Source of the DNA: Rhizobacter sp. Root1238
GTDB taxonomy: Bacteria; Pseudomonadota; Gammaproteobacteria; Burkholderiales; Burkholderiaceae_C
DNA: 64,000 bases
Assembly: GCF_001425825.1 (NCBI RefSeq)
Contig: NZ_LMDM01000049.1
Location: 124,001-188,000 of the forward strand
Direction: 5' to 3'
Shown one piece after another: positions 8,705 through 58,161 of the stretch (the first letter of the stretch is position 1; every line of letters begins with the position of its first letter). A model generated the notes under the pieces. That model saw nothing but the letters and a program-made list of their open reading frames with translations. It ran no database searches and had not been told where the DNA came from. Made by a program: the position numbers and the translations under genes.

Positions 8705-8710
8705 CCCGGA

Positions 8711-40673: not shown

Positions 40674-40805
40674 GTGGACACACACCCTGAAAAGAAAACC
40701 GGCGTCGCCAAGAATCGGGACACCTGTGGGTGCGTCCATTCTTTAGCTGGTTTTTTAAAGCGCCCGCAAGCCGGAACAAATCAGCGCTGGCGGCAAGTAT
40801 AGGGC

Positions 40806-41002: not shown

Positions 41003-42781
41003 ATGCAACGACGCAGCTTTCTCGGGGCCGCACTGAGCCCCATCGCCCTGGCCGCCTGTGGCGGTGGCGACGATGACAACCCGGTGCCGCCGCCCACCGC
41101 GCAAGGCACCGCGATCGACGCGATGAAACGCGCGGTGGCCTACATGGACGAAAAGGTCTCGTACCGCGGCGGCTACGTCTGGTCGTACTCGCCGGACCTG
41201 ACGCAGACCTTCGGCGAGATGGAGGCCAAGCGCACGATGTGCTGGATCCAGCCGCCCGGCACGCCGTCGGTCGGCAACGTGTTCCTCGATGCGTACCACG
41301 CGACCGGCGACGAGCGCTTCTACCAGGCCGCCGAGCGCACCGCGCTCGCGGTCGTCGCGGCGCAGCATGCTTCGGGCGGCTGGAACTACATCCACGACTT
41401 CGCCGGCGAAGAGTCGCTGAAGCACTGGTACGAGACCATCGGCAAGAACGGCTGGCGCCTCGAGGAATTCCAGAACTACTACGGCAACGCCACCTTCGAC
41501 GATGCCGGCACTGCGGTCGCCTCGCAGCTGATGCTGCGCATGTGGCTCGAGAAGAAGGACGCGCGCTTCGAAGCGCCGCTGAATCGAGCAATCGATTTCA
41601 TCAAGCAGGCCCAGTTTGGCGCCGAGCTCGGCATCGCCAACGGCGGCTGGCCGCAGCGCTTTCCGCACTACGCCGGCTCGAAGGCCAGCATGCCGCAGCC
41701 GAACCCCGAGCAGCTCCCGGCCGGTGCGCATGCCGGCATGGAGGACGGCGACTACACGCTGCACGTCACCTTCAACGACGACGTGATGGGCGAGAACATC
41801 AAGTTCCTGACGATGTGCGTGCTGGCGCTCGGCCGCACCGACCTGCTGGACAACATCGGCCGCGCGATGGAGTGCATGCGCGCGATGCAGCAGCCCGGGC
41901 CGCAGGCCGGCTGGAGCCTGCAGCACCTGTCGCGCGAGACGAACGGCCGCCCGGCCGGCGCTGCCGCCGGCGCGCGCACCTACGAGCCGCGCTCGCTGGC
42001 CACGCACACCACGCAGACCAACATCCAGCAGCTGTTCCACTACTTCACGCTGACCGGCGACCGCAAGTTCCTCGCGCGCATCCCCGAAGCCATCGCGTGG
42101 CTGAAGACGGTGCCGCTGCCGGCCGATGCGATCCAGCGCAATGCCTTGCTCAACGGCCGCACGCACGCCACCTTCATCGAGCTCGACAGCAACGAGTCGC
42201 TGTTCGTGCACCGCTACGGCTCCAACATCCACAACGGCGCCTACTTCGCCGACAAGGACCTGACGAACACGCTGAGCCACTACTCGGCCGGGCGTTCGAT
42301 CGACATCGCCGGGCTGCAGAAGCGCTACGACGATCTCGCCGGGATGAGCGACGCGGCGGTGGCCGAACTGGTGGCACGCTCGCCGCTGAAGGCGACGCAG
42401 CCGACGGCGCTGCCGAAGTTCTTCGGCATCCGCGAGGTCGATTTCCCCGACCTGTTCGCGGGCGCGAAGATGACGACGCCGGTGGTGCCGCAGACCGAGG
42501 TCGACACGCTGGTCGCCGACCTCGGCACGAAGAACTACTGGACGGCCCCGGTGCCCGAGGTGGTGAACCCGTACCGCGGCGACGGGCCGGCGACGCCGTA
42601 CACCGGCACCGCCTACCGCAGCAAGCATGTCGGCGACATCTATGACACCTCGCCGTACCCGGCCGACAACCCACCGGACATCGCGCCCTACGTGAAGCGC
42701 GACAAGCCGCAGTTCATCGTGACGGCGGATGTGATCCGGCGCCTCGGGCGGCTGATCGCGTTCGTGTCGCCGGTGGCCTGA
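41003..42781 (+). CDS. pectate lyase lipoprotein (polysaccharide lyase family 10)
   Basis: The 592-residue protein begins with a lipoprotein signal peptide (RRSFLGAALSPIALAAC, acylated Cys about residue 19) and an Asp/Pro linker. The body is a PL10-type pectic acid lyase: YMDEKVSYRGGYVWSYSPDL, the YQAAERTALAVVAAQHASGGWNYI region, FDDAGTAVASQLMLRMW, a Gly-Gly-Trp-Pro-Gln motif (NGGWPQRFPHY) and THTTQTNIQQLFHYF. Such enzymes cleave polygalacturonate by beta-elimination with Ca2+. AGGAGG lies 8 bp before the ATG. The protein should be membrane-anchored, facing periplasm or surface. Upstream dyads suggest regulation. Confidence 0.82.
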   Translation: MQRRSFLGAALSPIALAACGGGDDDNPVPPPTAQGTAIDAMKRAVAYMDEKVSYRGGYVWSYSPDLTQTFGEMEAKRTMCWIQPPGTPSVGNVFLDAYHATGDERFYQAAERTALAVVAAQHASGGWNYIHDFAGEESLKHWYETIGKNGWRLEEFQNYYGNATFDDAGTAVASQLMLRMWLEKKDARFEAPLNRAIDFIKQAQFGAELGIANGGWPQRFPHYAGSKASMPQPNPEQLPAGAHAGMEDGDYTLHVTFNDDVMGENIKFLTMCVLALGRTDLLDNIGRAMECMRAMQQPGPQAGWSLQHLSRETNGRPAGAAAGARTYEPRSLATHTTQTNIQQLFHYFTLTGDRKFLARIPEAIAWLKTVPLPADAIQRNALLNGRTHATFIELDSNESLFVHRYGSNIHNGAYFADKDLTNTLSHYSAGRSIDIAGLQKRYDDLAGMSDAAVAELVARSPLKATQPTALPKFFGIREVDFPDLFAGAKMTTPVVPQTEVDTLVADLGTKNYWTAPVPEVVNPYRGDGPATPYTGTAYRSKHVGDIYDTSPYPADNPPDIAPYVKRDKPQFIVTADVIRRLGRLIAFVSPVA

Positions 42782-42794
42782 GCGCGCGGGTGGC

Positions 42795-44483
42795 TCAGAC
42801 GGTCTCGTACAGGGCCAGCGTCAGTGCCAGCGCGTCACCGGCCGGCACCAGGCGCAGGCCCGGGCTGCGCGGGTCCAGCCCGCACGCCGGCGTCGCGATG
42901 ACCGGCAGGCCGCGGGCGAGCGCCTGCAACAGCCAGCGCGGCGCATGCTCGACATGCGCCGGCAGCACCACGGCGCCGATGCCGTGCCACGGGTCGTCCG
43001 CATCGAGCGGCACCGGCGCGAGGCCATGCCAGAAGCCGGGCGATTCGCTGGCGCGGCCGAGCACGGCCAGCGGCAGCCCGAGCGCCCGGCAGGCCTCGCG
43101 CAGCGCCGGCGCGCCCTTGCGCGCCAGCGACGAGGCTGGAAAGAGCAGCGTGCTGCCGCGCGCTGAAGGCGTTGCCGCGGGCCGGTCCCATTCGAGAAGG
43201 TCCACCTGATGGAGGCCGCGGGTCCGCAACCAGCGGGCGACCGCATGGTGCGGCGTCAGCACGCGAACCGCGCCACGCAGCGCTGTCCACTCGGCATCGA
43301 CGCGCCAGTCCGGCGCACGGTACTCGCGCAGGCCGGCCGCGGCCGGTTCGCCGGCCTGGCCGTCCAGCTGCTGATGCAGCATGCGCAGCGGCGACCGGGT
43401 CATCATCACCGTCACGCGGCGGCCGCCGAGCGCGCCGCGGCGCTGCAGTTCGGCCAGCGCCTCGACCGGAACGATCAGTTCGTCGGCCTCGGTCGGCACC
43501 CGCGCAAGCCAGGCCGTGGCACGCGCATCGTCGGCGGCGACCAGGTGGTGCTGGCGCCGCGCCGGTCGATGGCGGCAGGCGTGCGCCGCGAGCCGATGCC
43601 AGCGCTCGGCCAGGCCGGTCGGCGACGTCGCGCGAAGGCGGATGCCGCGAGCGGCGAGCCAGGTGTCGAACTCCGGCCAGCCGGCCACCGGCATCGCGGC
43701 GACCCGATCGCCGACGGGGCGCGAAGCCACGCGGCGCAGGCAGTCCGCTTGCGCGCAGTCCAGGCAGTCGTGCGCCGGCGGTCGACGCTCGGGCTCGATC
43801 GGAACGGGCCGTGCCGACCGCGCCGGCGGCGACGCACCGCGCAGCCGGACGATCAAGCGCTCGCTGTCGAGCCGCGCCTCGACGACGAAACGCTGCGGCA
43901 GCGCGAAGCGCAAGTCGAGGTAGTTCCAGAACACCGTCGCGTCGCGCCCTGCCTCGGCCTGCGAACCCGGCACGGCACGCGAATGCGGATGGCGCTCGAC
44001 GATCCGCGCCCCGGCATCGAGCGCCACGGCATACAGCGCATTCGACAGCTGGCACAGGCCCCCGCCGATGCTCGCGACCAGGCAGCCCTCGCGCAACTCC
44101 CGGCCGGGGACGAAGCCGCGGCGGCGGGTCGGGGCGCCGATCGCATGCCAGAAGCTGAAGACTTCGCCGGCTTGCACGACGAGTCCGTCGAGCCGCGAGG
44201 CTGCCGTCCGCAGGTTGTGGACCTTGCCGGCGGTCAGCGGCCATTCGTGCGGCGCGTGTTGCGTCCACAACGGCGTGATGCACTCGGCATGCACCGGGTC
44301 CTGCGATGCCGATCGGGTGATCGCGAAGCGGGTGCCGTTCCATCGGTCGACCAGGTCGCGGCCGCGGCGCATCCAGCGCAGGCCCTCGGCACGCCACGCG
44401 AAGTCGAGGGCCTGGAGGCGCGAGGTCCACCAGCCCGATGCGGCCGGCAACGAGGGAGCGGGGAGGGGAGCGGTGTCGTGCAT
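42795..44483 (-). CDS. VanW-domain protein with C-terminal glycosyltransferase-like part
   Basis: The 562-residue protein has an N-terminal VanW domain (about residues 85-230): HNLRTAASRLDGLVVQAGEVFSFWHAIGAPTRRRGFVPGRELREGCLVASIGGGLCQLSNALY. A short Cys segment follows (CLDCAQADC). The C-terminal half has LLFPASSLARKGAPALREACRALGLPLAVLG, an array resembling group-1 glycosyltransferases, and ends PRWLLQALARGLPVIATPACGLDPRSPGLRLVPAGDA. The start at 44483 is chosen over upstream in-frame options. VanW is named from vancomycin clusters but is widespread with unknown function. The combined protein could bind or transfer a sugar on the cell surface. Confidence 0.7.
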   Translation of the reverse strand: MHDTAPLPAPSLPAASGWWTSRLQALDFAWRAEGLRWMRRGRDLVDRWNGTRFAITRSASQDPVHAECITPLWTQHAPHEWPLTAGKVHNLRTAASRLDGLVVQAGEVFSFWHAIGAPTRRRGFVPGRELREGCLVASIGGGLCQLSNALYAVALDAGARIVERHPHSRAVPGSQAEAGRDATVFWNYLDLRFALPQRFVVEARLDSERLIVRLRGASPPARSARPVPIEPERRPPAHDCLDCAQADCLRRVASRPVGDRVAAMPVAGWPEFDTWLAARGIRLRATSPTGLAERWHRLAAHACRHRPARRQHHLVAADDARATAWLARVPTEADELIVPVEALAELQRRGALGGRRVTVMMTRSPLRMLHQQLDGQAGEPAAAGLREYRAPDWRVDAEWTALRGAVRVLTPHHAVARWLRTRGLHQVDLLEWDRPAATPSARGSTLLFPASSLARKGAPALREACRALGLPLAVLGRASESPGFWHGLAPVPLDADDPWHGIGAVVLPAHVEHAPRWLLQALARGLPVIATPACGLDPRSPGLRLVPAGDALALTLALYETV

Positions 44484-44553
44484 GCCGGCGAATGTGCCGG
44501 CCGGCCGCGACGCGGGCGCGAAGTCCGTGTGAAGCGCGCGAGAAAGACCCGGC

Positions 44554-45414
44554 TCAGCCGAGTTCCCGGCTCGCCAGCGCCGCCGCCGCGGCGCGGGTCT
44601 CCACGCCCAGCTTCTCGAACACATGCTCGAGGTGCTTGTTCACGGTGCGCGGGCTCATGCCGAGGATCTCGCCGACATCGCGGTTGGTCTTGCCCTTCGC
44701 GATCCATGACAGCACCTCGGTCTCGCGCGGTGTCAGCGATGCGGTGCTGAGGCGCGTCGGCAGCGCGTCGCTGGCGGCCTGCACCCGCAGCAGCAGCATG
44801 CACTCGCCGAGCCCGACCGCACCGGCGTGGCGCACCGCCAGCACCCGGCCGTCCACGGCGGCGCTGCGGTGCTCGAGCGGGCCGTCGCCCGCCCACGCCG
44901 GCGGCAAGCCGTCCGGATGGAACTCGCGCAGCCACGCCGCCGCCTGCGGCGAGCGCCACGCGACGCGCCCCCGCGCGTCGAGCACCAGCACGCCATGCCC
45001 GCCGACGTCCACCGCCTCGCGCGCGAGCCGCACCGCGCGCGCATTGCGCACGTGCGTGGCCAGCCGCACCAGCACCTCCTGCGCCCGCACCGGCTTCACG
45101 ACGTAGTCGACGCCGCCGCTCTCGAAGCCCTCGACGATGTGCGGCGTCTCCGACAGGCCGGTCATGAAGATCACCGGGATGTGAGACAGCGCCGGGTCCT
45201 GCTTGATGCGCCGGCAGGTCTCGAAGCCCGACAGCCCCGGCATCAGCGCGTCGAGCAGGATCGCGTCCGGCGTCGCGAGGTCCAGCCGCGCGAGCGCCGA
45301 CTCGCCGTCGCGCGCGACCAGCACCGTGTAGCCCTCGGCCTCGAGCGACACGCACAGCGCGCCCAGCGACTGCGGCGCGTCGTCGACCACCAGCACCACC
45401 GGCGACGCGCTCAC
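44554..45414 (-). CDS. LuxR-type response regulator with central PAS-like segment
   Basis: The 286-residue protein has a receiver domain with VVLVVDDAPQS, LLDALMPG (phospho-Asp), FMTG and VKPV, all canonical. A short PAS-like segment follows (GHGVLVLDARGRVAWRSPQAAAWL). The LuxR/NarL HTH is LTPRETEVLSWIAKGKTNRDVGEILGMSPRTVNKHLEHVFEKLGV. The GTG start at 45414 overlaps the stop of the sensor-kinase gene (GTGA), so it is the dedicated output partner of that kinase. It probably regulates the divergent urt-fmd operon. Confidence 0.9.
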   Translation of the reverse strand: MSASPVVLVVDDAPQSLGALCVSLEAEGYTVLVARDGESALARLDLATPDAILLDALMPGLSGFETCRRIKQDPALSHIPVIFMTGLSETPHIVEGFESGGVDYVVKPVRAQEVLVRLATHVRNARAVRLAREAVDVGGHGVLVLDARGRVAWRSPQAAAWLREFHPDGLPPAWAGDGPLEHRSAAVDGRVLAVRHAGAVGLGECMLLLRVQAASDALPTRLSTASLTPRETEVLSWIAKGKTNRDVGEILGMSPRTVNKHLEHVFEKLGVETRAAAAALASRELG

Positions 45415-48400
45415 GGCGCCTCCGTCGACACGTCGCCCAGCGCCTGCGTCAGACGGTCGAGCAGCGCGTCCAGCTCGAAGCGCTCCACCAGCAGCTGCAT
45501 CGCGCGCAGTTCGGCTTGCGCTGCCGGGTGCTCCCCGGTCGCCGCGTCGAGCGCCGCCTGCACGCCCTGCAGGTGGCCGAGCCGCACCAGCCGGATCAGG
45601 TCGCCGATCAGCTCGGCCGGCAGCGCCGTCGCCCCCGCCCGCTCGGGCGCGCCGGGCACCGCCCAGTTCGGCAGCGCCAGCTCGGCCAGCCACTCGATCT
45701 GAAGGTGCCGCTGCAGCATGCCGAGCAGCTCCGATTCGATCACCGGCTTGTCGACGAAACCCTGGCAGCCGGCCGCGGCCAGCTTGTCCGCCTGGTTCTC
45801 GAAAGCGTTCGCCGACACCATCAGGATCGGCACGTGCAACAGCCCGGCGGCGCGGATCTGGCGCGCCGTCTGCCAGCCGTCCATGTCGTCCATCGAGACG
45901 TCGAGCAGCACCGCATCGGGGCAGTCGTCGAGCACGCTCTCCAGGCATTCGCGCCCGCTGGCTGCCTCGCGGATGCGAAAGCCCAGCGGCATCAGCAGGC
46001 CGGCCAGCATCTGGCGCTGCGTCGGTTGGTCGTCCACCACCAGCAGGCTGCGCCGCGGTCCCAGGTAGCCGGTGACCGGCCGGTGCGTGCGCCGCGGCAG
46101 CATCGGCGCGCGGATCTCGCGCAGGTACAGCCGCGCGGTGAAGGTGCTGCCCTGGCCGGGCGCGCTCTTCAGCGACAGCTCGCCGCCCATCAGCTGGGTC
46201 AGCAGGTGCGTGATGGTCAGTCCGAGCCCGGTGCCCGGCTCGCCGGTGCGCCGCCCGGCGCTGCCGCGCTCGAACGGCAGGAAGATGCGCTCCTGGTCCT
46301 GCACCGCGATGCCGATGCCGGTGTCGACCACCTCGAAACGCGCGAGCTCCAGCCGGTAGTCCAGCTTCAGCGTCACGATGCCGCGGTCGGTGAAGCGCAC
46401 CGCGTTGCTCAGCAGGTTGATCAGGATCTGGCGCAGCCGCTTCGCGTCGGCGTTCACGTGGTCGGGCACGCGGCCGCTGGTCTGCAGCGTGAAGACGAGG
46501 CCTTTCGCCTCGGCCTGCGGCGCCACCATGCGCACCAGGTCGTCGAGGAACTCGTGCATCGGCAGCGGCGCCATGTCCAGCCGCAGCCGCCCGGCCTCGA
46601 TGCGCGCCAGGTCGAGCAGCCCGTCGACCAGGCCGTGCAGGTGCTCGCCGCTGCGGTGGATGGTGTCGACCGACGCACGCCGCACGCCCTGCACCTGCTC
46701 GTCCTTCAGCAGGATCTGCGCATAGCCGAGGATGCTGTTCAGCGGCGTGCGCAGCTCGTGCGTCATGCCGGCCACGTAGCGCGTCTTCGCCTGGTTGGCG
46801 GCCTCGGCCAGGTCCTTCGCCGCCTGCAGCGCGGCATCGGTGCGGCGGTGCGCATCGATCTCCTTCGTCAGCAGCTGGTTCTGCCGGTTCGATTCGTCCT
46901 GCGCCATGTGCCGGCTCTCGCTGCCCAGCACCACCCACCAGGCGCCGACCGCCGCGGCCAGCGACAGCAGCGCGAACACCTTCAGCAGCGGCGCCTTCAA
47001 TGCCGCCTGCGCGGTCGCGTGCAGCACGCCCTCCTGGTCGTAGACCACGCCGAGGATCACCGCCAGCAGCCCGATCAGCGAGGCCGCCACCACCAGGTAG
47101 TGGGCGACGCGGAAGTTCACCCGCGACGCGAGCCGCTGCGGCAGCACCGCGGCCAGCACCGCGCTGACCTGCTCGGCGGCGCGCGAATCGGTCTTGCAAC
47201 GGTCATGGCAGCGCGATTCCAGCGTGCAGCACAGCGAGCAGATCGGCGCACCGTAGGCCGGGCAGTGGGCCATGTCCTCGGACTCGAACGCGTTGTCGCA
47301 GACCGTGCAGGTCACGCTCTGGCCGGCCGCCCAGCGCGCGGTGTCGCGCCGCGCCAGGTACCAGCGCCCGCGCGTCGCCCAGGCCAGCAGCGGCGACACC
47401 CCCATCGCGGTGGCCAGCGCGATGAACGGCGCGAAGGCCTGCGCCGCGGCGCCGAGCGCGCCGGCGTAGGCGACGATCGCGAGCACCGCCGCGCTCAACA
47501 TCGCGCCCAGCCCGACCGGGTTGATGTCGTACAGGTGCGCGCGCTTGAACTCGATGTGGCGCGGGCTCCAGCCGAGCGGCTTGTTGATCACGAGGTCGGC
47601 GACGAGCGCGCCCACCCAGGCGATCGCAACGTTGCTGTACAGCCCGAGCACCCGCTCCAGCGCCTCGAACACGCCGAGCGTCATCAGCAGCACCGCGATC
47701 AGCACGTTGAACACCAGCCACACCACGCGGCCCGGGTGGCTGTGCGTCAGCCGCGCGAAGAAGTTCGACCAGGCGAGCGAGCCGGCATACGCATTGGTCA
47801 GGTTGATCTTCAGCTGCGAGACCAGCACGAACAGCGTGGTCGCGCCGAGGATCCAGGCCGGGTTGTCGAACACGTAGCCGAAGCCGGCGAGGTACATCTG
47901 CGTGGGCTCGACCGCCTTCTCGGTCGGGATCTGGTGCTGCAGCGCGAGGAAGGCGAGGAACGCGCCGCCCAGCATCTTGACCATGCCGGGCACGATCCAG
48001 CCGGGCCCGGCCACCAGCACCGCGGCCCACCAGCGGCGCCGGTTGGCGCGCGTCTTCTCGGGCAGGAAGCGCAGGTAGTCGACCTGCTCGCCGATCTGCA
48101 CCACCAGCGAGAACGCCACGGTGGCCGCGGTGCCGAACATCAGCCAGCTGAAGCCGTTGCTGCCCGAGGCGCGGCCGACCAGCCCGGTGAAATCGGCGAA
48201 CACCTGCGGGTTCTTCGCGAGCACGAAGGCGTAGGGGCAGACCAGCAGCGCGAGCCACAGCGGCTGCGTCCACAGCTGCAGCCGTGAGATCAGCGTGATG
48301 CCGTGCATCACCAGCGGTACGATGCCCAGCGACGACAGCAGGTAGCACAGCGACAGCGGCCAGTCGAAGTACATCTGCAGCGCGAGCGCGAGGATCGCCG

Positions 48401-48803
48401 CCTCGAGCGCGAGGAAGATGAAGGTGAAGCTCGCGTAGACCAGCGAGGTCAGCGTGGAGCCGAGGTAGCCGAAGCCGGCGCCGCGCGTCAGCAGGTCCAT
48501 GTCGACGCCGTACTTCGCCGCGTAGTAGCTGATCGGCAGCCCGGTCAGGAAGGTGATCAGCCCGACGACGAGGATCGCCCACAGCGCGTTCGAGAAGCCG
48601 TAGCCGATCGCGATCGAGCCGCCGATGGCCTCGAGCGCGAGGAACGAGGTGGCGCCGAACGCGGTGTTGGCGACGCGGAACTCGCTCCACTTGCGGAAGC
48701 TGCGCGGCGTGTAGCGCAGCGCGTAGTCCTCGAGCGTCTCGTTGCCGACCCAGGTGTTGTAGTCCCGGCGGATGCGAAAGATCTTTTGCGTGGCCACGGA
48801 CAC
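45411..48803 (-). CDS. NCS1-type permease fused to hybrid histidine kinase
   Basis: The predicted protein has 1130 residues. Residues 1 to about 480 form a nucleobase:cation symporter-1 (NCS1) like transporter with about 12 membrane segments (opening TPRSFRKWSEFRVANTAFG, with LPISYYAAKYGVDMDLLTRGAGFGY). A Cys-rich module follows (CTVCDN...CPAYGAPICSLCCTLESRCHDRC, about residues 495-530) that could bind zinc. Two more membrane helices lead to HisKA (AGMTHELRTPLNSILGYAQILL, His about 680), HATPase (INLLSNAVRF, DTGIGI, GTGLGL), then a receiver (LLVVDDQPTQRQ, LLDVSMDDMDG). The GTG at 48803 has GGAGA upstream. It likely senses transport of an amide or base, as in CbrA-like solute-carrier kinases. 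Confidence 0.82.
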   Translation of the reverse strand: MSVATQKIFRIRRDYNTWVGNETLEDYALRYTPRSFRKWSEFRVANTAFGATSFLALEAIGGSIAIGYGFSNALWAILVVGLITFLTGLPISYYAAKYGVDMDLLTRGAGFGYLGSTLTSLVYASFTFIFLALEAAILALALQMYFDWPLSLCYLLSSLGIVPLVMHGITLISRLQLWTQPLWLALLVCPYAFVLAKNPQVFADFTGLVGRASGSNGFSWLMFGTAATVAFSLVVQIGEQVDYLRFLPEKTRANRRRWWAAVLVAGPGWIVPGMVKMLGGAFLAFLALQHQIPTEKAVEPTQMYLAGFGYVFDNPAWILGATTLFVLVSQLKINLTNAYAGSLAWSNFFARLTHSHPGRVVWLVFNVLIAVLLMTLGVFEALERVLGLYSNVAIAWVGALVADLVINKPLGWSPRHIEFKRAHLYDINPVGLGAMLSAAVLAIVAYAGALGAAAQAFAPFIALATAMGVSPLLAWATRGRWYLARRDTARWAAGQSVTCTVCDNAFESEDMAHCPAYGAPICSLCCTLESRCHDRCKTDSRAAEQVSAVLAAVLPQRLASRVNFRVAHYLVVAASLIGLLAVILGVVYDQEGVLHATAQAALKAPLLKVFALLSLAAAVGAWWVVLGSESRHMAQDESNRQNQLLTKEIDAHRRTDAALQAAKDLAEAANQAKTRYVAGMTHELRTPLNSILGYAQILLKDEQVQGVRRASVDTIHRSGEHLHGLVDGLLDLARIEAGRLRLDMAPLPMHEFLDDLVRMVAPQAEAKGLVFTLQTSGRVPDHVNADAKRLRQILINLLSNAVRFTDRGIVTLKLDYRLELARFEVVDTGIGIAVQDQERIFLPFERGSAGRRTGEPGTGLGLTITHLLTQLMGGELSLKSAPGQGSTFTARLYLREIRAPMLPRRTHRPVTGYLGPRRSLLVVDDQPTQRQMLAGLLMPLGFRIREAASGRECLESVLDDCPDAVLLDVSMDDMDGWQTARQIRAAGLLHVPILMVSANAFENQADKLAAAGCQGFVDKPVIESELLGMLQRHLQIEWLAELALPNWAVPGAPERAGATALPAELIGDLIRLVRLGHLQGVQAALDAATGEHPAAQAELRAMQLLVERFELDALLDRLTQALGDVSTEAP

Positions 48804-49041
48804 CGGTTTCTCCGACAACGACGGCAGTGTCGGCTCCTGCTTGCAAGAAGCGCTCCCGCCGCTCGCGCTGCTCGGTGCGGCGCGAGTGTCGCCTCGCGCG
48901 GCGCGGCCGGCGCTACGTTGATTGACGTATTCGGGTTGCGCACGCCATCCGGGACAGTCGGCACCAGCGTGAACGACGCGGCACCGCACAGGCTTGGTGC
49001 CGAGCGTGACGACGATGCCCTCAACCTGCACGGAGCCTTCC

Positions 49042-50307
49042 ATGTCCCAAGACCGCAACGACGATCTCCAGCCCGATTCGATGCAGCGCCGCCGGCTGCT
49101 GCAAGGCGCCGCCGCGCTGCCGCTGGCCGGGCTTTCGGGCCTCGCGCTGGCGCAAGCCGCCCCGACCGCCAAGGTCAACACGACGAAGCTGGCGGTCACC
49201 GACACCGAGGTGACGGTCGGCCAGCTGCACTCGGGCACCGGCACGATGGCGATCTCGGAGACCGGCTCGATCCAGGCCGAGCAGCTCGCGATCGACCAGA
49301 TCAACGCGATGGGCGGCGTGCTGGGCCGCAAGATCAAGGTGATCAAGGAGGACGGCGCGTCCGACTGGCCGACCTTCGCCGAGAAGTCGAAGAAGCTGCT
49401 GGTCAACGACCGCGTGGCCTGCGTGTTCGGCTGCTGGACCTCGGCCTCGCGCAAGGCGGTGCTGCCGATCTTCGAGAAGGAGAACGGCATGCTCTATTAC
49501 CCGACCTTCTACGAAGGCCTGGAGCAAAGCAAGAACGTGATCTACACCGGCCAGGAGGCGACGCAGCAGATCCTGTGGGGCCTCGACTGGGCGGCCAAGG
49601 AGAAGAAGGCCAAGACCTACTTCCTGGTCGGCTCCGACTACATCTGGCCGCGCACCTCGATGAAGATCGGCCGCAAGCACATCGAGGGGCACCTGGCCGG
49701 CAGCAAGGTGGTCGGCGAGGAGTACTACCCGCTGGGCCACACCAACTTCAACTCGCTGATCAACAAGATCAAGGTCGCCAAGCCCGACTGCATCTTCGTC
49801 GCGGTGGTGGGCGGCTCGAACGTCGCGTTCTACAAGCAGCTGAAGGCGGCCGGCGTCACCGCCGACAAGCAGTTCCTGCTGACGATCTCGGTGACCGAGG
49901 ACGAGGTGCTGGGCATCGGCGGCGAGAACATGGCCGGCTTCTACGCGTCGATGAAGTACTTCCAGTCGCTGGACAACGCGAACAACAAGGCCTTCGTGTC
50001 GGCGTTCCGCACCAAGTACGGCCCGAGTTCGGTGATCGGCGACGTGACGCAGGCCGGCTACCTCGGCCCGTGGCTGTGGAAGGCGGCGGTCGAGAAGGCC
50101 GGCAGCTTCGATGTCGACAAGATCGCCGCCGCGTCGGCGGGGATCGAGCTGAAGACCGCGCCCGAGGGCTACGTGAAGGTGCACGAGAACCACCACCTGT
50201 GGAGCAAGACGCGCATCGGCATCGCGCAGGCGGACGGGCAGTTCAAGGTGGTCGCGGAGTCGCCGGAGCTCATCGAGCCGAATCCGTTCCCGAAGGGCTA
50301 CCAGTAA
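49042..50307 (+). CDS. urtA: urea/short-chain amide ABC transporter substrate-binding protein
   Basis: The 421-residue protein opens with a twin-arginine-like signal (MQRRRLLQGAAALPLAGLSG) and then the periplasmic binding-protein fold of the UrtA/FmdD type. VGQLHSGTGTMAISETGSIQAEQLAIDQINAMGGVLGRKI is highly characteristic, as is VFGCWTSASRKAVLPIFEKENGMLYYPTFYEGLEQSKN. The gene starts at 49042 because the mature part then follows directly. It begins the urtABCDE-fmdA-fmdB operon and is divergent from the transporter-like sensor kinase. The ligand is likely urea, with formamide or short-chain amides possible given the neighbouring formamidase. Confidence 0.93.
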   Translation: MSQDRNDDLQPDSMQRRRLLQGAAALPLAGLSGLALAQAAPTAKVNTTKLAVTDTEVTVGQLHSGTGTMAISETGSIQAEQLAIDQINAMGGVLGRKIKVIKEDGASDWPTFAEKSKKLLVNDRVACVFGCWTSASRKAVLPIFEKENGMLYYPTFYEGLEQSKNVIYTGQEATQQILWGLDWAAKEKKAKTYFLVGSDYIWPRTSMKIGRKHIEGHLAGSKVVGEEYYPLGHTNFNSLINKIKVAKPDCIFVAVVGGSNVAFYKQLKAAGVTADKQFLLTISVTEDEVLGIGGENMAGFYASMKYFQSLDNANNKAFVSAFRTKYGPSSVIGDVTQAGYLGPWLWKAAVEKAGSFDVDKIAAASAGIELKTAPEGYVKVHENHHLWSKTRIGIAQADGQFKVVAESPELIEPNPFPKGYQ

Positions 50308-50347
50308 ACAGAGGGTCGAAGGGCCCCCCCACGAGCATCGCCACGCC

Positions 50348-51262
50348 ATGACCCTCTCCGAAATCCTGAACATCTCGCTGATGCAAGGCTTCGCCGGCCT
50401 GAGCCTGTTCTCGGTGCTGCTGCTGATGGGCCTGGGCCTGGCCATCATCTTCGGCCAGATGGGCGTTATCAACATGGCCCACGGCGAGTTCATGACGATC
50501 GGCGCCTACACGATCTACCTGTTCTCGCACCTGGCCGAAAGCTATGCACCCAAGCTGGTGGGGGCGTACTTCCCGGTCGCGATCGTCGCCGCGTTCGGCT
50601 TCGCGTTCGCCGCCGGCTGGGCGGTCGAGTGGCTGTTCATCCGCCACCTGTACCGCCGCCCGCTCGACACGCTGCTGGCCACCTGGGGGCTGTCGCTGGG
50701 CATGCAGCAGATCTTCCGCTCCACCTTCGGCGCGAAGGAGGTCAGCCCGACGCTGCCCGACTGGCTGATGGGCTCCTGGGCCCCGTCGGCTGGCCTCGAC
50801 ATCCCGATCAACGGGCTGTTCGTGATGGCGCTGACGGCGGTCGTCACCGGCGGCGTGCTGCTCGCGCTGTACCGCTCGCGCTGGGGCCTGCGGGTGCGCG
50901 CCACGGTGGCCAACCGCGTGATGGCCAACGCGACCGGCATCAACACGCGGCAGACCGACCGGCTGACCTTCGCGATCGGCTGCGGCATCGCCGGCGTCGC
51001 GGGTGCCGCGTTCACCACCATCGGCTCCACCGGCCCGACCAGCGGCTCGCTGTACATCGTCGACGCCTTCCTGGTCGTCACCTTCGGCGGCGCGGCCAGC
51101 CTGCTGGGCACCGTGGTCTCGGCCTTCGGCATCGCGCAGACGCAGTCGATCGCCGAGTTCTTCATCACCGGCTCGATGGCCAAGGTGCTGACGCTGTCGC
51201 TGATCGTGCTGATCCTGATGGTGCGGCCGCAGGGGCTGTTCGCGGCCAAGGTGCGGCGTTGA
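50348..51262 (+). CDS. urtB: urea/amide ABC transporter permease UrtB
   Basis: The 304-residue inner-membrane permease of the branched-chain amino-acid/urea (LivH-like) class has about eight hydrophobic helices. MGLGLAIIFGQMGVINMAHGEFMTIGAYTIYLF is the family hallmark, and DAFLVVTFGGAASLLGTVVSAFGIAQTQSIAEFF closes the core. The protein matches the transmembrane part of UrtB and lacks the long N-terminal periplasmic extension of some homologues. It begins 40 bp after urtA. Confidence 0.93.
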   Translation: MTLSEILNISLMQGFAGLSLFSVLLLMGLGLAIIFGQMGVINMAHGEFMTIGAYTIYLFSHLAESYAPKLVGAYFPVAIVAAFGFAFAAGWAVEWLFIRHLYRRPLDTLLATWGLSLGMQQIFRSTFGAKEVSPTLPDWLMGSWAPSAGLDIPINGLFVMALTAVVTGGVLLALYRSRWGLRVRATVANRVMANATGINTRQTDRLTFAIGCGIAGVAGAAFTTIGSTGPTSGSLYIVDAFLVVTFGGAASLLGTVVSAFGIAQTQSIAEFFITGSMAKVLTLSLIVLILMVRPQGLFAAKVRR

Positions 51263-51290
51263 TTCCTTCCACCTCACCCAGGGCAATCCG

Positions 51291-52481
51291 ATGAATCGCA
51301 TCAAGCAGTGGCTGGACCGCAGCGGCATGGGCAGCGTGCTGCTGCTCGCGCTGGTGCTGGCGGTGGTGTTCCCGCTGGTCTTCGACCTGTTCCGCCTCAA
51401 CCTCGTCGGCAAGTACCTGAGCTATGCCTTCGTCGCGCTCGGCCTCGTGATGCTGTGGGGCTACGGCGGCGTGCTGAGCCTCGGGCAGGGCGTGTTCTTC
51501 GGCCTCGGCGGCTACGGCATGGCGATGTTCCTGAAGCTCGAGGCGAGCGACCCCGTCACGACGAAGATCCAGTCGACGCCGGGCATCCCCGACTTCATGG
51601 ACTGGAACCAGCTCACCGCGCTGCCTTTGTGGTGGGAGCCGTTCCGGCACTTCCCGTTCGCGTTGCTCGCGATCCTCGCGGTGCCGACGCTGCTGGCGTT
51701 CGTGATCGGCTACGCGATGTTCAAGCGGCGGGTCGGCGGGGTGTACTTCGCGATCATCACGCAGGCGGTGGCGCTGATCCTGACGGTGCTGATCATCGGC
51801 CAGCAGGGCTACACCGGCGGCGTCAACGGCATGACCGACCTGAAGACGCTGCTCGGCTGGGACACCCGCAGCAACGGCGCGAAGTACATCCTGTACTTCC
51901 TGACGGTGGCGCTGCTGATCGGCGCCATCGTCGTGTGCCGCTGGATCCAGCAGAGCAAGCTCGGCACGCTGCTGCTCGCGATGCGCGACAAGGAAGACCG
52001 CGTGCGCTTCTCGGGCTACGACGTCGCGATGTTCCGGGTGTTCGCGTTCTGCCTGGCGGCGCTGCTGGCGGCCATCGGCGGGGCGCTGTTCACGTTGCAG
52101 GTGGGCTTCATGTCGCCGTCGCTGGTGGGCATCGTCCCGAGCATCGAGATGGTGATCTTCGCGGCGGTGGGCGGGCGCATGTCACTGGTGGGTGCGGTGT
52201 ACGGCGCGTTGCTCGTCAACTTCGGCAAGACCTACTTTTCCGAGAGCCTGCCCGACCTGTGGCTGTTCCTGATGGCGGCGATGTTCCTCGGCGTGGTGCT
52301 GGCGTTCCCCGACGGGCTCGCCGGGCTGTATGCCGACAAGCTGAAGCCGTGGTGGTTGCGCAGGACGAGCAAGCGCAGCGAAGCGACCGATCAAGCAACG
52401 GCCGCTCCCCCGGGCCGCCCCGGGGGACCAGTCGGCGCCCCCTCGGGGGGCAGGAGCGAAGCGACGTGGGGGCTGTCATGA
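51291..52481 (+). CDS. urtC: urea/amide ABC transporter permease UrtC, 3' end extended by a repeat
   Basis: The 396-residue LivM-like permease has GYGGVLSLGQGVFFGLGGYGMAMFLKLEASD near the N-terminus and VGGVYFAIITQAVALIL in the middle, with RWIQQSKLGTLLLAMRDKEDRVRFSGYDVA at the cytoplasmic EAA-like loop. The last 37 residues (from SKRSEATDQ) are encoded by a G+C-rich palindromic repeat and are unlike UrtC elsewhere. It starts 28 bp after urtB and its stop overlaps the urtD start (ATGA). Confidence 0.92.
   Translation: MNRIKQWLDRSGMGSVLLLALVLAVVFPLVFDLFRLNLVGKYLSYAFVALGLVMLWGYGGVLSLGQGVFFGLGGYGMAMFLKLEASDPVTTKIQSTPGIPDFMDWNQLTALPLWWEPFRHFPFALLAILAVPTLLAFVIGYAMFKRRVGGVYFAIITQAVALILTVLIIGQQGYTGGVNGMTDLKTLLGWDTRSNGAKYILYFLTVALLIGAIVVCRWIQQSKLGTLLLAMRDKEDRVRFSGYDVAMFRVFAFCLAALLAAIGGALFTLQVGFMSPSLVGIVPSIEMVIFAAVGGRMSLVGAVYGALLVNFGKTYFSESLPDLWLFLMAAMFLGVVLAFPDGLAGLYADKLKPWWLRRTSKRSEATDQATAAPPGRPGGPVGAPSGGRSEATWGLS
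52400..52475. repeat. G+C-rich palindromic repeat overlapping the urtC 3' end
   Basis: The segment holds CCCCGGGCCGCCCCGGGG and GCCCCCTCGGGGGGC palindromes followed by AGGAGCGAAGCGACGTGGGG, a pattern repeated in many Burkholderiales genomes. It supplies the last codons of urtC and the leader just before the urtD ATG. A degenerate relative lies at 3663-3720. Confidence 0.6.
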
Positions 52482-53221
52482 GCAACACCGATTTCGTGCT
52501 GGCGGTCGAGGACCTGACCGTCTCGTTCGACGGCTTCAAGGCGATCGACGCGCTGACGCTGTACGTCGACAAGAACGAGCTGCGCGTGATCATCGGGCCG
52601 AACGGCGCCGGCAAGACCACGCTGCTCGACCTGATCTGCGGCAAGACCCGCGCGAGCGCCGGCAGCATCAAGTTCAAGAACGCCGAGATGAGCCGGCTGC
52701 CCGAATACCAGATCGTGCGCTCCGGCATCGGCCGCAAGTTCCAGACGCCGTCGATCTACGAGAACCTCAGCGTGTTCCAGAACCTGGAGGTGTCGTTTCC
52801 GCGCGGGCGCGGCGTGTTCGGTGCGCTTGCATTCAAGCGCGATGCCGAGGTGCGCGACGCGGTGCAGTCGGTGGCCGCCGAGATCGGCCTGGCCGACCAG
52901 CTCGCGCTGGAGGCCGGCCTGCTGTCGCACGGCCAGAAGCAGTGGCTCGAGATCGGCATGCTGCTGATGCAGGACCCGGAGCTGCTGATGCTCGACGAGC
53001 CGATCGCCGGCATGAGCGTGCGCGAGCGCGAGCTGACGGCCGAGCTGCTGAAGCGCATCTGCAAGGGCCGCTCGATGATCGTGATCGAGCACGACATGGA
53101 TTTCGTCAAGCAGATCGCCCACAAGGTGACGGTGATGCACCAGGGAAAGATCCTCGCCGAAGGCTCGATGGAGCAGGTGCAGGCCGACCCGAAGGTGATC
53201 GATGTCTACCTGGGCCACTGA
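52478..53221 (+). CDS. urtD: urea/amide ABC transporter ATPase UrtD
   Basis: The 247-residue ATPase has Walker A GPNGAGKTTLLDL, the Q-loop/lid KFQTPSIYENLSVFQNLEVSF, the signature in LSHGQKQWLEIGMLL (the SHGQ variant typical of UrtD), Walker B LLMLDEPIAGM and the switch His in IVIEHDMDFVKQIA. It is the LivG-like subunit of the transporter. The ATG overlaps the urtC stop codon. Confidence 0.95.
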   Translation: MSNTDFVLAVEDLTVSFDGFKAIDALTLYVDKNELRVIIGPNGAGKTTLLDLICGKTRASAGSIKFKNAEMSRLPEYQIVRSGIGRKFQTPSIYENLSVFQNLEVSFPRGRGVFGALAFKRDAEVRDAVQSVAAEIGLADQLALEAGLLSHGQKQWLEIGMLLMQDPELLMLDEPIAGMSVRERELTAELLKRICKGRSMIVIEHDMDFVKQIAHKVTVMHQGKILAEGSMEQVQADPKVIDVYLGH

Positions 53222-53231
53222 GGACCACGCG

Positions 53232-53921
53232 ATGCTCACAGTCAGGAACCTGCACGTCGCCTACGGCCAGAGCGAGGCCTTGCACGGCATCGACTTCGAG
53301 GCGAGGAAGAACGAGACCGTCGCGGTGATGGGCCGCAACGGCATGGGCAAGACCACGCTGTTCAAGAGCCTGATGGGCGTGCTGCCGGTCAAGTCCGGCA
53401 GCATCGAGGTCGACGGCCGCGAGGTCACGAAGGACGAGAGCTTCCAGCGCGTGCGCAAGGGCCTGGCCTACGTGCCGCAGGGCCGGATGATCTTCCCGAC
53501 GCTGACGGTCGAGGAGAACATCCGCACCGGCCTGGAGAACGCCGCGAGCCGGCGCATCCCCGACGAGATCTACGCGCTGTTCCCGGTGCTGTTCGACATG
53601 CGCGCGCGCAAGGGCGGCAACCTGTCGGGCGGCCAGCAGCAGCAGCTCGCGATCGCACGCGCGCTCGTCACCAACCCGAAGGTGCTGCTGCTCGACGAGC
53701 CGACCGAAGGCATCCAGCCGTCGATCATCAAGGACATCGCCCGTGCGCTGAACGAGATCCGCAAGCGGCGCGAGATCACGATCGTCGTGTCGGAGCAGGT
53801 GCTGAGCTTCGCGCTGGACGTGGCCGACCGGCTGTTCGTCATCGAGGGCGGCCGGCTGGTGCACGAGAGCCCGCGCGCGAGCACCGACGTGCAGCGCATC
53901 AAGCAGTTCCTTTCCGTCTGA
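53232..53921 (+). CDS. urtE: urea/amide ABC transporter ATPase UrtE
   Basis: The 229-residue LivF-like ATPase has Walker A GRNGMGKTTLFKSL, signature LSGGQQQQLAIARAL, Walker B LLLDEPTEGIQPSI and VVSEQVLSFALDVADR, where the usual switch His position is Gln. GRMIFPTLTVEENIRTGL is typical of UrtE. The start at 53232 is chosen because it matches the usual N-terminus (MLTVRNLHVAYGQSEALHGI); an in-frame ATG at 53202 overlaps urtD. It pairs with UrtD in the transporter. Confidence 0.94.
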   Translation: MLTVRNLHVAYGQSEALHGIDFEARKNETVAVMGRNGMGKTTLFKSLMGVLPVKSGSIEVDGREVTKDESFQRVRKGLAYVPQGRMIFPTLTVEENIRTGLENAASRRIPDEIYALFPVLFDMRARKGGNLSGGQQQQLAIARALVTNPKVLLLDEPTEGIQPSIIKDIARALNEIRKRREITIVVSEQVLSFALDVADRLFVIEGGRLVHESPRASTDVQRIKQFLSV

Positions 53922-53944
53922 ACAAACACCCCCAGGAGCACGCC

Positions 53945-55174
53945 ATGCCCGACACCCTGATCAAGGTCGACCTGAAGCAGTCGCCGTACGAGAACGAGCA
54001 GATCCACAACCGCTGGCATCCGGACATCCCGATGGCCTGCTGGGTCAAGCCGGGCGAGGACTTCGTGCTGGAAACCTACGACTGGACCGGCGGTTTCATC
54101 CAGAACAACGACAGCGCCGACGACGTGCGCGACATCGACCTGTCGATCGTGCACTTCCTGTCGGGCCCGGTCGGTGTGCACGGTGCCGAGCCGGGCGACC
54201 TGCTGGTGGTCGACCTGCTGGACATCGGTGCCAAGGCCGACAGCCTGTGGGGTTTCAACGGCTTCTTCTCGAAGAACAACGGCGGCGGCTTCCTGACCGA
54301 CCACTTCCCGTTCGCGCAGAAGTCGATCTGGGACATCCAGGGCATGTTCACCAAGTCGCGCCACGTGCCGGGCGTGAACTACGCCGGGCTGATCCACCCC
54401 GGGCTGATCGGCTGCCTGCCGGACCCGTCGCTGCTGGAGAAGTGGAACGAGCGCGAGGTCGGCCTGATCGCGACCGAGCCCGACCGCGTGCCGCCGCTGG
54501 CGAACCCGCCGTTCGCCGCCACCGCGCACCTCGGCAAGCTGGGCGGCGACGCGAAGACCAAGGCGGCCGCCGAGGGGGCGCGCACCGTGCCACCGCGCGA
54601 GCACGGCGGCAACTGCGACATCAAGGACCTGTCGCGCGGCTCGAAGATCTACTTCCCGGTGTACGTGAAGGGCGCGGGCCTGTCGGTCGGCGACCTGCAC
54701 TTCAGCCAGGGCGACGGCGAGATCACCTTCTGCGGCGCGATCGAGATGGCCGGCTGGGTGCACATGAAGGTCGAGGTGATCAAGGGCGGGATGGCGATGT
54801 ATGGCATCAAGAACCCGATCTTCCGGCCGAGCCCGATCACGCCGCATTACAACGACTACCTGATCTTCGAGGGCATCTCGGTCGACGAGGCCGGCAAGCA
54901 GCACTACCTGGACGTCAACGTCGCGTACCGCCAGGCCTGCCTGAACGCGATCGAGTACCTGACGAAGTTCGGCTACAGCAAGGCCCAGGCGTATTCGATC
55001 CTCGGCACCGCGCCGGTGCAGGGGCACATCAGCGGCGTGGTCGACATCCCCAACTCCTGCGCGACGTTGTGGCTGCCGACGCAGATCTTCGATTTCGACA
55101 TCCGGCCGAACGCCAGCGGTCCGGTGAAGCACATCCAGGGCGGGCCGGAGATGCCGCTGTCGCCGGACCTCTGA
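53945..55174 (+). CDS. fmdA: formamidase (acetamidase/formamidase family)
   Basis: The 409-residue enzyme hydrolyses formamide to formate and ammonia. It matches the Methylophilus-type FmdA in length and sequence: PDTLIKVDLKQSPYENEQIHNRWHPDIPMACWVKPGEDFVLETYDWTGG at the start, then VNYAGLIHPGLIGCLPDPSLL and REHGGNCDIKDLSRGSKIYFPVYVKGAGLSVGDLHFSQGDGEITFCGAIEM. The family binds zinc. It lies 23 bp after urtE, so transport and hydrolysis are encoded together. Related acetamidases act on longer amides, so some breadth is possible. Confidence 0.95.
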   Translation: MPDTLIKVDLKQSPYENEQIHNRWHPDIPMACWVKPGEDFVLETYDWTGGFIQNNDSADDVRDIDLSIVHFLSGPVGVHGAEPGDLLVVDLLDIGAKADSLWGFNGFFSKNNGGGFLTDHFPFAQKSIWDIQGMFTKSRHVPGVNYAGLIHPGLIGCLPDPSLLEKWNEREVGLIATEPDRVPPLANPPFAATAHLGKLGGDAKTKAAAEGARTVPPREHGGNCDIKDLSRGSKIYFPVYVKGAGLSVGDLHFSQGDGEITFCGAIEMAGWVHMKVEVIKGGMAMYGIKNPIFRPSPITPHYNDYLIFEGISVDEAGKQHYLDVNVAYRQACLNAIEYLTKFGYSKAQAYSILGTAPVQGHISGVVDIPNSCATLWLPTQIFDFDIRPNASGPVKHIQGGPEMPLSPDL

Positions 55175-55190
55175 AGCCGGAGCGACGACG

Positions 55191-55517
55191 ATGCCGACCT
55201 ACGACTACCAGTGCCCGCAGTGCGGGCCGTTCGATGCGTTGCGGCGCATGGCCGAGCGCGACGTGCCGGCCGATTGCCCGCGTTGCGAGATGCCGTCGGC
55301 ACGCGCCTGGCTGGCCGCGCCCCGGCTCGCCGACATGCCGGCCGAGCGGCGCCTGGCGCTCGCGACCAACGAGCGGGCGCAGCACGAGCCGAAGGAATCG
55401 GCGCGCTACCGGCATCCGGCCGGGTGCGGGTGCTGTGCCGGGCCGAAGCGCAGCGGCGACGCGGCGAAGGCGCCGCGCTCATTTGCCGGCAAGCGGCCTT
55501 GGATGATCAGTCATTGA
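55191..55517 (+). CDS. fmdB: FmdB-family zinc-ribbon protein
   Basis: The 108-residue protein has the FmdB zinc ribbon at the N-terminus (MPTYDYQCPQCGPFDALRRMAERDVPADCPRCEM) with CxxC/CxxC ligands. A C-terminal stretch includes a further GCGCCAG cysteine cluster. In Methylophilus this gene accompanies fmdA and was proposed as a regulator. It starts 16 bp after fmdA and closes the operon. Confidence 0.88.
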   Translation: MPTYDYQCPQCGPFDALRRMAERDVPADCPRCEMPSARAWLAAPRLADMPAERRLALATNERAQHEPKESARYRHPAGCGCCAGPKRSGDAAKAPRSFAGKRPWMISH

Positions 55518-56868: not shown

Positions 56869-56937
56869 TCCCGGGATAGCCGGCCGCCGCTGCAGCCGCT
56901 ACCCTTGGCGTCTTCCAGAACCGCCGCGGAGCAGCCC

Positions 56938-58161
56938 ATGCCGACGACGCCCGACGCCAGGATCCTGATCGCCCAGGGCGGTGGCCCGACCGCCGTGATC
57001 AACCAGTCGCTGGTCGGCGCGGTGCTCGCGGCGCAGCGCTTCCCCGAGGTGAGGGCCGTCTACGGCGCCCGCCACGGCGTGCGCGGCATCGTCGACGAGG
57101 ACTTCGTCGACCTCGCGCGCGAAACCCCGCAGCAGCTCGAGGCTGTGGCCGCGACGCCCGCGTCGGCGCTCGGCAGCACCCGCGACAAGCCCGACCTGGC
57201 CTACTGCCGCGCGATCCTGAAGGTGCTGCAGGCGCACGGCATCAGCCATTTCCTGTACATCGGCGGCAACGATTCGTCGGACACCGTGCGCATCGTCAGC
57301 GACGAGGCCCGCCAGGCCGGCCACCCGCTGCGCTGCATCCACGTGCCGAAGACCATCGACAACGACCTGGTGGGCAACGACCACACGCCGGGGTATGCCT
57401 CAGCGGCGCGCTTCGTCGCGCAGGCCTTTGCCGGCGCCAACCTCGACAACGCCGCGTTGCCGGGCGTCTACCTCGGCGTCGTGATGGGCCGGCATGCCGG
57501 TTTCCTGACGGCGGCGGCCGCGCTCGGCGCGCGCTACCCGGACGACGGCCCGCACCTGATCTACCTGCCCGAGCGCGTGTTCGAACGCGAGCGCTTCCTG
57601 GCCGACGTGCGCGCGACGCACCAGCGCCTCGGGCGCTGCGTGATCGCGGTTTCCGAAGGCATCCACGACGCGTCGGGCGAGCCGATTGCGGCGCAACTCG
57701 CCAGCGGCGGGCCGGAGCGCGATGCGCACGGCAACGTGCAGCTGTCGGGCACCGGCGCGCTGGCCGACCTGCTGTGCGACCTGATCAAGGACCAGCTGAA
57801 GATCAAGCGCGTGCGCGGCGACACCTTCGGCTACCTGCAGCGCTCGTTCCTCGGCTGCGTGTCGGACGTCGACCAGCGCGAGGCGCGCGAGGTCGGCGAG
57901 ACCGCGCTGCAGTTCGCGCTGCGCGGCGACCGCGACGGTTCGGTCGCGATCCAGCGCTGTGGCGACTATGCGGTGCGCTACGAGCTGCTGCCGCTGGAAG
58001 CGGTGGCCGGCAAGACGCGGGTGATGGAAGACGTGTTCATCGCCGAGGGCGGCCATGCCGTCACCGACGCGTTCCGCAGCTACCTGCGGCCGCTGCTCGG
58101 CAGCGACATGCCGCAGGCGCACCGGCTGCGCGGCCACCCGGTTGCGAAATTGCTCGGCTGA
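56938..58161 (+). CDS. pfp: diphosphate-dependent 6-phosphofructokinase
   Basis: The 407-residue protein is a PfkA-superfamily enzyme that phosphorylates fructose 6-phosphate. The N-terminal AQGGGPTAVINQSLVGAV, the nucleotide-discriminating YIGGNDSSDT (GGND-S instead of the ATP-type GGDGS), the catalytic PKTIDNDL and the substrate loop VMGRHAGFLT are visible. The Asp after GGN is the mark of the pyrophosphate-using group, so the reaction is probably reversible with PPi. The length fits the long PPi type. Confidence 0.85.
   Translation: MPTTPDARILIAQGGGPTAVINQSLVGAVLAAQRFPEVRAVYGARHGVRGIVDEDFVDLARETPQQLEAVAATPASALGSTRDKPDLAYCRAILKVLQAHGISHFLYIGGNDSSDTVRIVSDEARQAGHPLRCIHVPKTIDNDLVGNDHTPGYASAARFVAQAFAGANLDNAALPGVYLGVVMGRHAGFLTAAAALGARYPDDGPHLIYLPERVFERERFLADVRATHQRLGRCVIAVSEGIHDASGEPIAAQLASGGPERDAHGNVQLSGTGALADLLCDLIKDQLKIKRVRGDTFGYLQRSFLGCVSDVDQREAREVGETALQFALRGDRDGSVAIQRCGDYAVRYELLPLEAVAGKTRVMEDVFIAEGGHAVTDAFRSYLRPLLGSDMPQAHRLRGHPVAKLLG

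Follow-up and report, generated by a model that had tools for sequence, protein, structure and literature searches.

Urea and formamide are widespread nitrogen sources. We analyzed a 64,000-nucleotide stretch of the Rhizobacter sp. Root1238 genome (contig NZ_LMDM01000049.1, positions 124,001 to 188,000; hereafter the window, numbered from its first letter), in which a membrane carrier fused to a hybrid histidine kinase is encoded together with a LuxR-type response regulator, divergently from a urea/amide importer and formamidase operon, urtABCDE-fmdA-fmdB (Table 1). A sequence-only reading of this DNA had proposed that the carrier serves as the sensor of the pair and controls uptake and hydrolysis. 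Our analyses support this interpretation, with the ligand and the transcriptional control as predictions from sequence comparison. It is now better supported because a palindrome lies between the divergent genes and because sister carriers occur in urease and fmdA-amiE operons.

The carrier-kinase, its regulator and the divergent operon

The layout described in the earlier reading was borne out. The two gene sets point away from each other across 238 bp, NCBIfam models name the urt and fmd products, and the TGA of the kinase gene shares 4 nt with the GTG of the regulator gene (GTGA). The kinase gene itself starts with a GTG at 48803 that is preceded by GGAG. The claimed domain order (carrier, Cys module, two helices, HisKA, HATPase and receiver) also holds, with Pfam identifying the kinase part. 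The protein has the HisKA His (H682), the HATPase_c domain and the receiver Asp (D968) of a hybrid histidine kinase, and the regulator carries D55. We found that the Cys-rich block is real: Cys 499, 502, 514, 522, 525, 526, 532, and 536 are kept in 148–149 of the 149 kinases compared, and we predict that the module forms one or more zinc sites.

Pfam reported no STAC domain for the kinase, and no stand-alone STAC profile was run. The middle of the regulator gave a weak Pfam PAS match (E 0.17) in one of the four regulators scanned. A single-sequence AlphaFold model of the full kinase reached a predicted local distance difference test (pLDDT) score of 38.7 and was not used. Scanning of the urt-fmd interval revealed no riboswitch and no promoter or terminator pattern.

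Table 1. Features of the locus, in window coordinates
Feature	Positions	Strand	Basis
LuxR/NarL-type response regulator, receiver (REC) + ~100-aa middle + GerE helix-turn-helix	44554..45414	-	Pfam Response_reg, GerE; D55
Carrier-fused hybrid histidine kinase, 1130 aa	45411..48803	-	Pfam domains; full-length homologues
Receiver with D968	45714..46043	-	Pfam, sequence
HATPase_c	46122..46448	-	Pfam
HisKA with H682	46590..46790	-	Pfam, sequence
Two extra helices + coil toward kinase, about residues 564-680	46764..47114	-	Model helices 564-594, 596-679
8-Cys module, about residues 496-540, predicted zinc site(s)	47184..47318	-	Cys conservation; short strands in structure model
NCS1-type carrier domain, about residues 1-486	47346..48803	-	
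Divergent interval, 238 bp	48804..49041	.	Kinase start to urtA ATG at 49042
Palindrome CTACGTTGATTGACGTAT, predicted operator	48913..48930	.	118.5 and 120.5 bp from the two start codons
urtA, urea/amide binding protein	49042..50307	+	TIGR03407 above cut-off
urtB	50348..51262	+	TIGR03409 above cut-off
urtC	51291..52481	+	TIGR03408 above cut-off
urtD, ATG at 52478	52475..53221	+	TIGR03411 above cut-off
urtE, start uncertain	53202..53921	+	TIGR03410 above cut-off
fmdA, formamidase	53945..55174	+	NF045496, 762 bits vs cut-off 500
fmdB, zinc ribbon protein	55191..55517	+	NF053663, TIGR02605 above cut-off

Conserved neighbourhood and a shared palindrome

We compared the window with 148 further homologous loci, made up of the 80 best of at least 576 relatives and 68 loci from a search of the order, including a paralogue from the same genome; some of the 148 are near copies (L011 and L097 are identical) and some contigs are short. 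The sequence-only reading had named the gene company of this architecture as the check on its proposal, and we observed that the kinase goes with urt, fmd, ami, and ure genes. At least one of UrtA, FmdA, UreC, and AmiE was encoded near the kinase in 119 of the 148 loci (UrtA in 95, FmdA in 71, UreC in 33, and AmiE in 31). In 120 loci there was also a regulator from the same cluster, and in 69 a divergent urtA lay no more than 1.5 kb from the kinase. For the loci that lacked urt, fmd, ami, and ure genes in a first count, 34 gene clusters were listed; purine or pyrimidine gene sets were not recognized among them by eye, a survey made without a profile search.

The association also held at the level of genomes. 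Across 399 genomes of the order, the carrier had matches in 72, of which 65 were at E<1e-100. With these 65 taken as kinase-positive and the seven genomes with weak or partial matches counted as negative, FmdA scored above cut-off in 42 of 65 kinase genomes versus 11 of 334 others (Fisher test, odds ratio 53.6, p 6e-30). UrtA reached E<1e-100 in 60 of the 65 versus about 83 of the 334 (by-eye count), and was above cut-off in 123 of the 399 genomes.

Layouts varied among loci: some resembled the window, with divergent urt-fmd genes, and others had urt-fmd-ami-ure followed by kinase and regulator, urease genes divergent from the kinase, or kinase and regulator followed by urt. The kinase locus on Sinorhizobium meliloti pSymB has a canonical urt set, that of Methylovirgula a formamidase with an aliphatic amidase further away, and that of a Klebsiella pneumoniae plasmid (L165) a formamidase-urtEDCBA set divergent from the kinase, near insertion sequence (IS) elements and resistance genes. 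The carrier query matched 342 Klebsiella plasmid records, of which this one was inspected. Cyanobacteria have family members as well (L127, L135, L139, and L141, from Phormidium, Okeania, Pseudanabaena, and Leptolyngbyaceae); of the tested genes, amiE was found near L141 only, and L141 also has an open reading frame (ORF) of the UrtA cluster according to its tree label.

A tree of the 149 kinases and four stand-alone carriers was built by a quick method, with long branches flagged. Context labels clustered on it, with 13 label changes for fmd versus 50.4 in shuffles and 4 versus 20.1 for ure, figures from which the label shuffles do not remove kinship; loci with canonical urt only were not clustered (13 versus 14.5). 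The tree shows two main kinase classes, fmd-linked and urease-linked, and the Rhizobacter genome has one of each. The window kinase falls in the fmd-linked part, and the second family copy (L003, C34) in the urease-linked part. L003 is 52% identical to the window kinase over the full length and 63% in the carrier; it and ureB-ureC are arranged divergently, and a regulator and a canonical urtA lie some 7–8 kb behind it.

The interval between kinase and urtA holds an 18-bp palindrome, CTACGTTGATTGACGTAT, about midway. When the intervals between kinase and urtA were compared across 65 loci (61 of them non-redundant, the window included), they shared the form ATACGTCAATTGACGTAT: TACG-N8-CGTA occurs in 56 of the 61 intervals versus about 0.2 in shuffles, and ACGT-N6-ACGT in 53 of the 61 versus about none. 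As a conserved element between kinase and urtA, this palindrome is new here, and its conservation and placement lead us to predict that it is the operator of the LuxR-type regulator, mainly in the fmd class. In the 6.5-Mb genome, TACGTYRNNYRACGTA has a single exact match, which lies in this interval, and one one-mismatch match inside a long ORF. In a control restricted to the window, 31 of 100 shuffles gave a match with two mismatches or fewer.

A site matrix identified 107 sites at 20 bits or more across the 148 loci (2.6 Mb), versus 0 in a control with one shuffle per locus. Ninety-eight of the 107 fall in the 450 bp that precede a tested gene start, regions amounting to 17% of the DNA; seven of the 98 were assigned to fmdA and four to amiE only. 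By context label, sites were present at 57/67 fmd loci, 5/15 canonical urt loci, 5/13 loci with both, 3/27 with none, and 3/21 ure loci. The matrix was made from the same intervals that yield most of these in-sample sites, so that the 17 later kinase loci alone are out of sample. Nine of the 17 have a site in the divergent interval (Acinetobacter baumannii, S. meliloti, the K. pneumoniae plasmid, L171, L176–L179, and L182), and L166 has a 15-bit site; no site was found in L172–L175, L180, L181, and L183, and L184, on a short contig, lay outside the scan. The scan likewise gave no site at three stand-alone carrier loci without a kinase (L164, L170, and L186). Upstream regions of the urease class have another element (words AAAGACAA, AGCTTGTC, and ATCTTCAC) in 13–14 of 21, mostly from related genomes.

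These genes could instead be neighbours by chance, or through shared ancestry of one island, with no regulatory link. Many of the loci are indeed related, and label shuffles keep that kinship; however, divergent, co-directional, urease-linked, and plasmid-borne layouts occur in many families, and the palindrome is common to the divergent starts. We regard a neighbourhood without a regulatory link as very improbable.

Carrier fold, presumed pocket and stand-alone relatives

The carrier had been called NCS1-type, a label that sequence searches with the carrier itself do not show and that the structure model and sister proteins support. PF02133 did not match the kinase's own carrier domain at E<=10, nor anything else in its genome, and PDB sequence searches with the carrier (likewise at E<=10), profile A1, and two related permeases returned no NCS1 entry. 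The structure model of the carrier has CodB and Mhp1 as its best fold matches, with SLC5 structures ranking lower, and PF02133 scored above gathering in four of the eight stand-alone sister carriers scanned (P0170, P0185, P0190, and L170; not in P0194, L171, L164, and L162). Because its own domain lacks a PF02133 match, we treat the carrier as a divergent subfamily, NCS1-type, rather than as a plain NCS1 member.

Residue comparison with CodB by hhalign was limited to transmembrane helix 3 (TM3), with the E. coli numbering checked. F130 fell on CodB W108, and E134 lies four residues further, where Mhp1 has Q121. The substrate-stacking residue at W108 is predominantly Trp in the NCS1 family (PMC9379551); here the position is Phe in 131 of the 149 kinases, and Phe or Leu overall. 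E134 is conserved in 148 of the kinases, and Q236, E239, Q240, K332, N334, and N337 in all 149; these seven residues are invariant in the stand-alone sisters too (25-row alignment, with F130 not listed). In TM8, one ungapped register puts K332 on CodB T278 (5/32 identities), and a second puts K332 on N275 and T336-N337 on T279-N280 (8/32 identities). T278 and N275 are both named as sodium ligands of CodB (PMC9379551), so that either register places the Lys on a sodium-ligand residue, the exact position differing between them. The Na2 site of CbrA likewise contains a Lys (PMC13022988). With polar residues, no ring-stacking Trp, and a Lys near the sodium site, the pocket is predicted to suit a small polar ligand, perhaps with proton coupling.

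Apart from F130, which is Leu in 27% of the urease-class kinases, the presumed pocket hardly differs between the fmd and urease classes, and this suggests one type of ligand for both. Differences between the classes lie outside it, at L140, G377, and G398. A specificity switch between the two classes was considered and rejected, the presumed pocket residues being the same apart from F130.

The closest non-kinase relatives of the carrier domain are carriers of about 535–560 aa in which four of the eight Cys are retained, or all eight in the case of L171. On an Acinetobacter johnsonii plasmid, such a sister heads a urease operon, and at L170 another stands beside ureG-F-E-C-D. In K. pneumoniae (L186), the sister (7956–9563, plus strand), annotated as a cytosine permease, follows ureG; the gene table lacks ureC there, where an IS element lies. 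The L171 sister directly precedes fmdA-amiE and faces away from a kinase-regulator pair, the palindrome lying in the space that separates them. A. baumannii has a comparable arrangement, with a stand-alone carrier divergent from the kinase and its regulator. Such placement of sister carriers, inside urease operons or ahead of fmdA-amiE and with the conserved residues retained, is new here. We infer that these carriers move urea or amides.

Alternatively, the carrier might bind a ring compound (allantoin, hydantoin, or a nucleobase) that yields urea on breakdown, with urt-fmd-ure as downstream targets. NCS1 members of known substrate mostly carry rings (PMC9379551, PMC13390362), and source annotations name the sisters cytosine or allantoin permeases. 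However, the base-stacking Trp of CodB is replaced by Phe or Leu, allantoin or nucleobase genes were not noticed by eye in the neighbourhoods, and the sisters stand directly inside urease or fmdA-amiE operons. We consider a ring ligand improbable.

It is also conceivable that transport comes first, with the carrier moving urea or amides and the kinase reporting the flux as a transport-coupled receptor. This would suit the conserved residues, which are those of the stand-alone carriers, and the carrier of CbrA, which transports histidine (PMC13022988), but a dedicated ATP-binding cassette (ABC) importer is encoded next door. We rate this alternative as rather unlikely.

Proposed function and comparison with known systems

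We consider it likely that urea or short amides are what the carrier-kinase and its LuxR regulator sense, and that the pair would activate the divergent urtABCDE-fmdAB genes through the 18-bp palindrome midway between them. The locus is real and widespread. For the fmd class, gene context and palindrome make a strong case; the proposed ligand and mechanism are predictions. Several observations weigh against this proposal. None of the four tested genes was found in 29 of the 148 loci, some of them on short contigs; 23 of the 65 kinase genomes lack FmdA above cut-off, and 11 genomes have FmdA and no kinase. In the Rhizobacter genome, the pattern search gave two places versus six for the reversed-pattern control, and because the control gives more, the argument from this genome is one of position, not number. 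Few urease-class loci (3 of 21) have the palindrome, L003 shows none above 15 bits, and L180 has a divergent urtA yet no site. Finally, the A. baumannii system discussed below has been linked to energy metabolism and colistin, and the word urea occurs 0 times in PMC10112286.

In the mechanism that we propose, urea or an amide would bind the carrier pocket, and the resulting change of carrier state would be relayed by the Cys module and the two extra helices to the dimerization and histidine phosphotransfer (DHp) helix. Phosphate would then pass from His682 to the regulator. The kinase's own receiver is taken as a modulator because no histidine phosphotransfer (Hpt) domain was seen. A phosphorylated regulator dimer would bind the palindrome and activate urt-fmd, and probably the regulator's own gene too; in other genomes, the targets would be amiE, urease-linked urt genes, or a stand-alone carrier. 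If this is true, a receptor, an operator, and a test set for urea/amide sensing are obtained together.

A wider proposal is put forward tentatively: NCS1 may hold an unrecognised urea/short-amide carrier subfamily, marked by a Lys at the sodium site and a terminal zinc module, which is probably proton-coupled given that Lys. Its stand-alone members would feed the ureases of Klebsiella and Acinetobacter, and its kinase-fused members would be receptors in two classes, formamidase and urease, the first acting via the palindrome; AmsS of A. baumannii would be one such receptor, its response to carbonyl cyanide m-chlorophenylhydrazone (CCCP) arising from proton coupling. Proteins labelled as cytosine or allantoin permeases would then include urea/amide carriers.

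Other genes of the window lie outside this locus. A SAM_alpha (SAM-II type) riboswitch (40720–40797, minus strand; 43 bits versus gathering 36) stands in front of metX (39531–40739), which scores above the cut-off of a homoserine O-succinyltransferase model. A 609-aa ORF just downstream of the regulator gene (42795–44624, minus strand) has a VanW-like stretch (83 bits versus cut-off 365). The plus strand also encodes a possible, weakly matched secreted pectate lyase (41003–42781; 48 bits versus cut-off 190) and a protein above the cut-off of a diphosphate-dependent phosphofructokinase subfamily (56905–58161).

The operon has described counterparts. The fmdCABDEF cluster of Methylophilus methylotrophus likewise combines an amide/urea importer with formamidase and is reportedly induced by formamide and urea; the available text of that paper names a putative positive regulator and describes no carrier-kinase (PMC10781810). 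A chromosomal Pseudomonas veronii cluster is given as amiE-fmdA-fmdB-urtABCDE, with no kinase mentioned in the passages available (PMC13209695). PMC13060141 treats urt-formamidase genes of K. pneumoniae as a urea transport system (UTS), in a text from which the terms histidine kinase and two-component are absent; the Klebsiella plasmid matches, of which one was inspected, sit on this kind of locus. In the open-licence PMC literature, subscription papers being outside the scope, we found neither an NCS1 sensor kinase nor a dedicated urea/amide two-component sensor.

The closest described pair is AmsSR/StkSR of A. baumannii, a 14-helix hybrid kinase and a LuxR regulator with a 4-nt overlap (PMC10112286, PMC9146086). 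The A. baumannii pair in our set fits AmsSR/StkSR, matched by description rather than by locus tag; its kinase (1154 aa) is 47% identical to the window kinase over the whole length, and its regulator (319 aa) 42% identical. The record in question (L162, NZ_CP077849.1; 3.66 Mb) is labelled a plasmid, and the locus is probably chromosomal. Like the window pair, AmsSR/StkSR has a many-helix hybrid kinase without Hpt, a LuxR-type regulator, and the overlap. Unlike it, the A. baumannii kinase is divergent from a stand-alone sister carrier instead of urt-fmd, and the system was published as one of energy metabolism and colistin, with no carrier family or urea link given in the available text.

For AmsSR, a quinone or energy signal has been discussed; CCCP induces its promoter, and in the mutants the membrane potential is changed (PMC10112286). 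The CCCP and membrane-potential data, together with the invariant Lys at a sodium-site position, would suit a variant in which the pair controls urt-fmd but the carrier reads proton motive force or the general nitrogen or energy state. However, invariant polar pocket residues, the same as in stand-alone carriers, would be superfluous for an energy sensor, and the neighbours are specific to urea and amides, so we hold energy sensing to be quite unlikely. As a speculation, a proton-coupled carrier domain would account for the CCCP response. Should the carrier-kinase sense urea or short amides, as we favour, this would offer a ligand class for AmsSR/StkSR, whose signal lacks assignment in published work.

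Transporter-fused kinases of other kinds provide further comparisons. SLC5-STAC sensor kinases reportedly include CrbS and RpuS besides CbrA, and an ammonium sensor kinase with a fused Amt domain is said to join a nitrogen-source transporter to a kinase, the transporter fold being unrelated. The earlier comparison with CbrA holds as an analogy but does not extend to the carrier family. CbrA is similar in having a LeuT-fold carrier fused to a histidine kinase and a likely ligand pocket in the carrier (PMC13022988), and differs in its SLC5 carrier and STAC coupling, in place of which the window kinase has an NCS1-type carrier, a Cys module, and two helices. CodB, Mhp1, and MetT share their NCS1 fold with the window carrier, according to the structure model, and MetT carries a non-ring guanidine compound (PMC13390362). 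The window protein differs from these three in its kinase fusion, the TM3 Phe in place of Trp, the Lys at a Na2-site position, and the Cys module that ends the carrier. If our reading is true, transceptor kinases gain another carrier fold.

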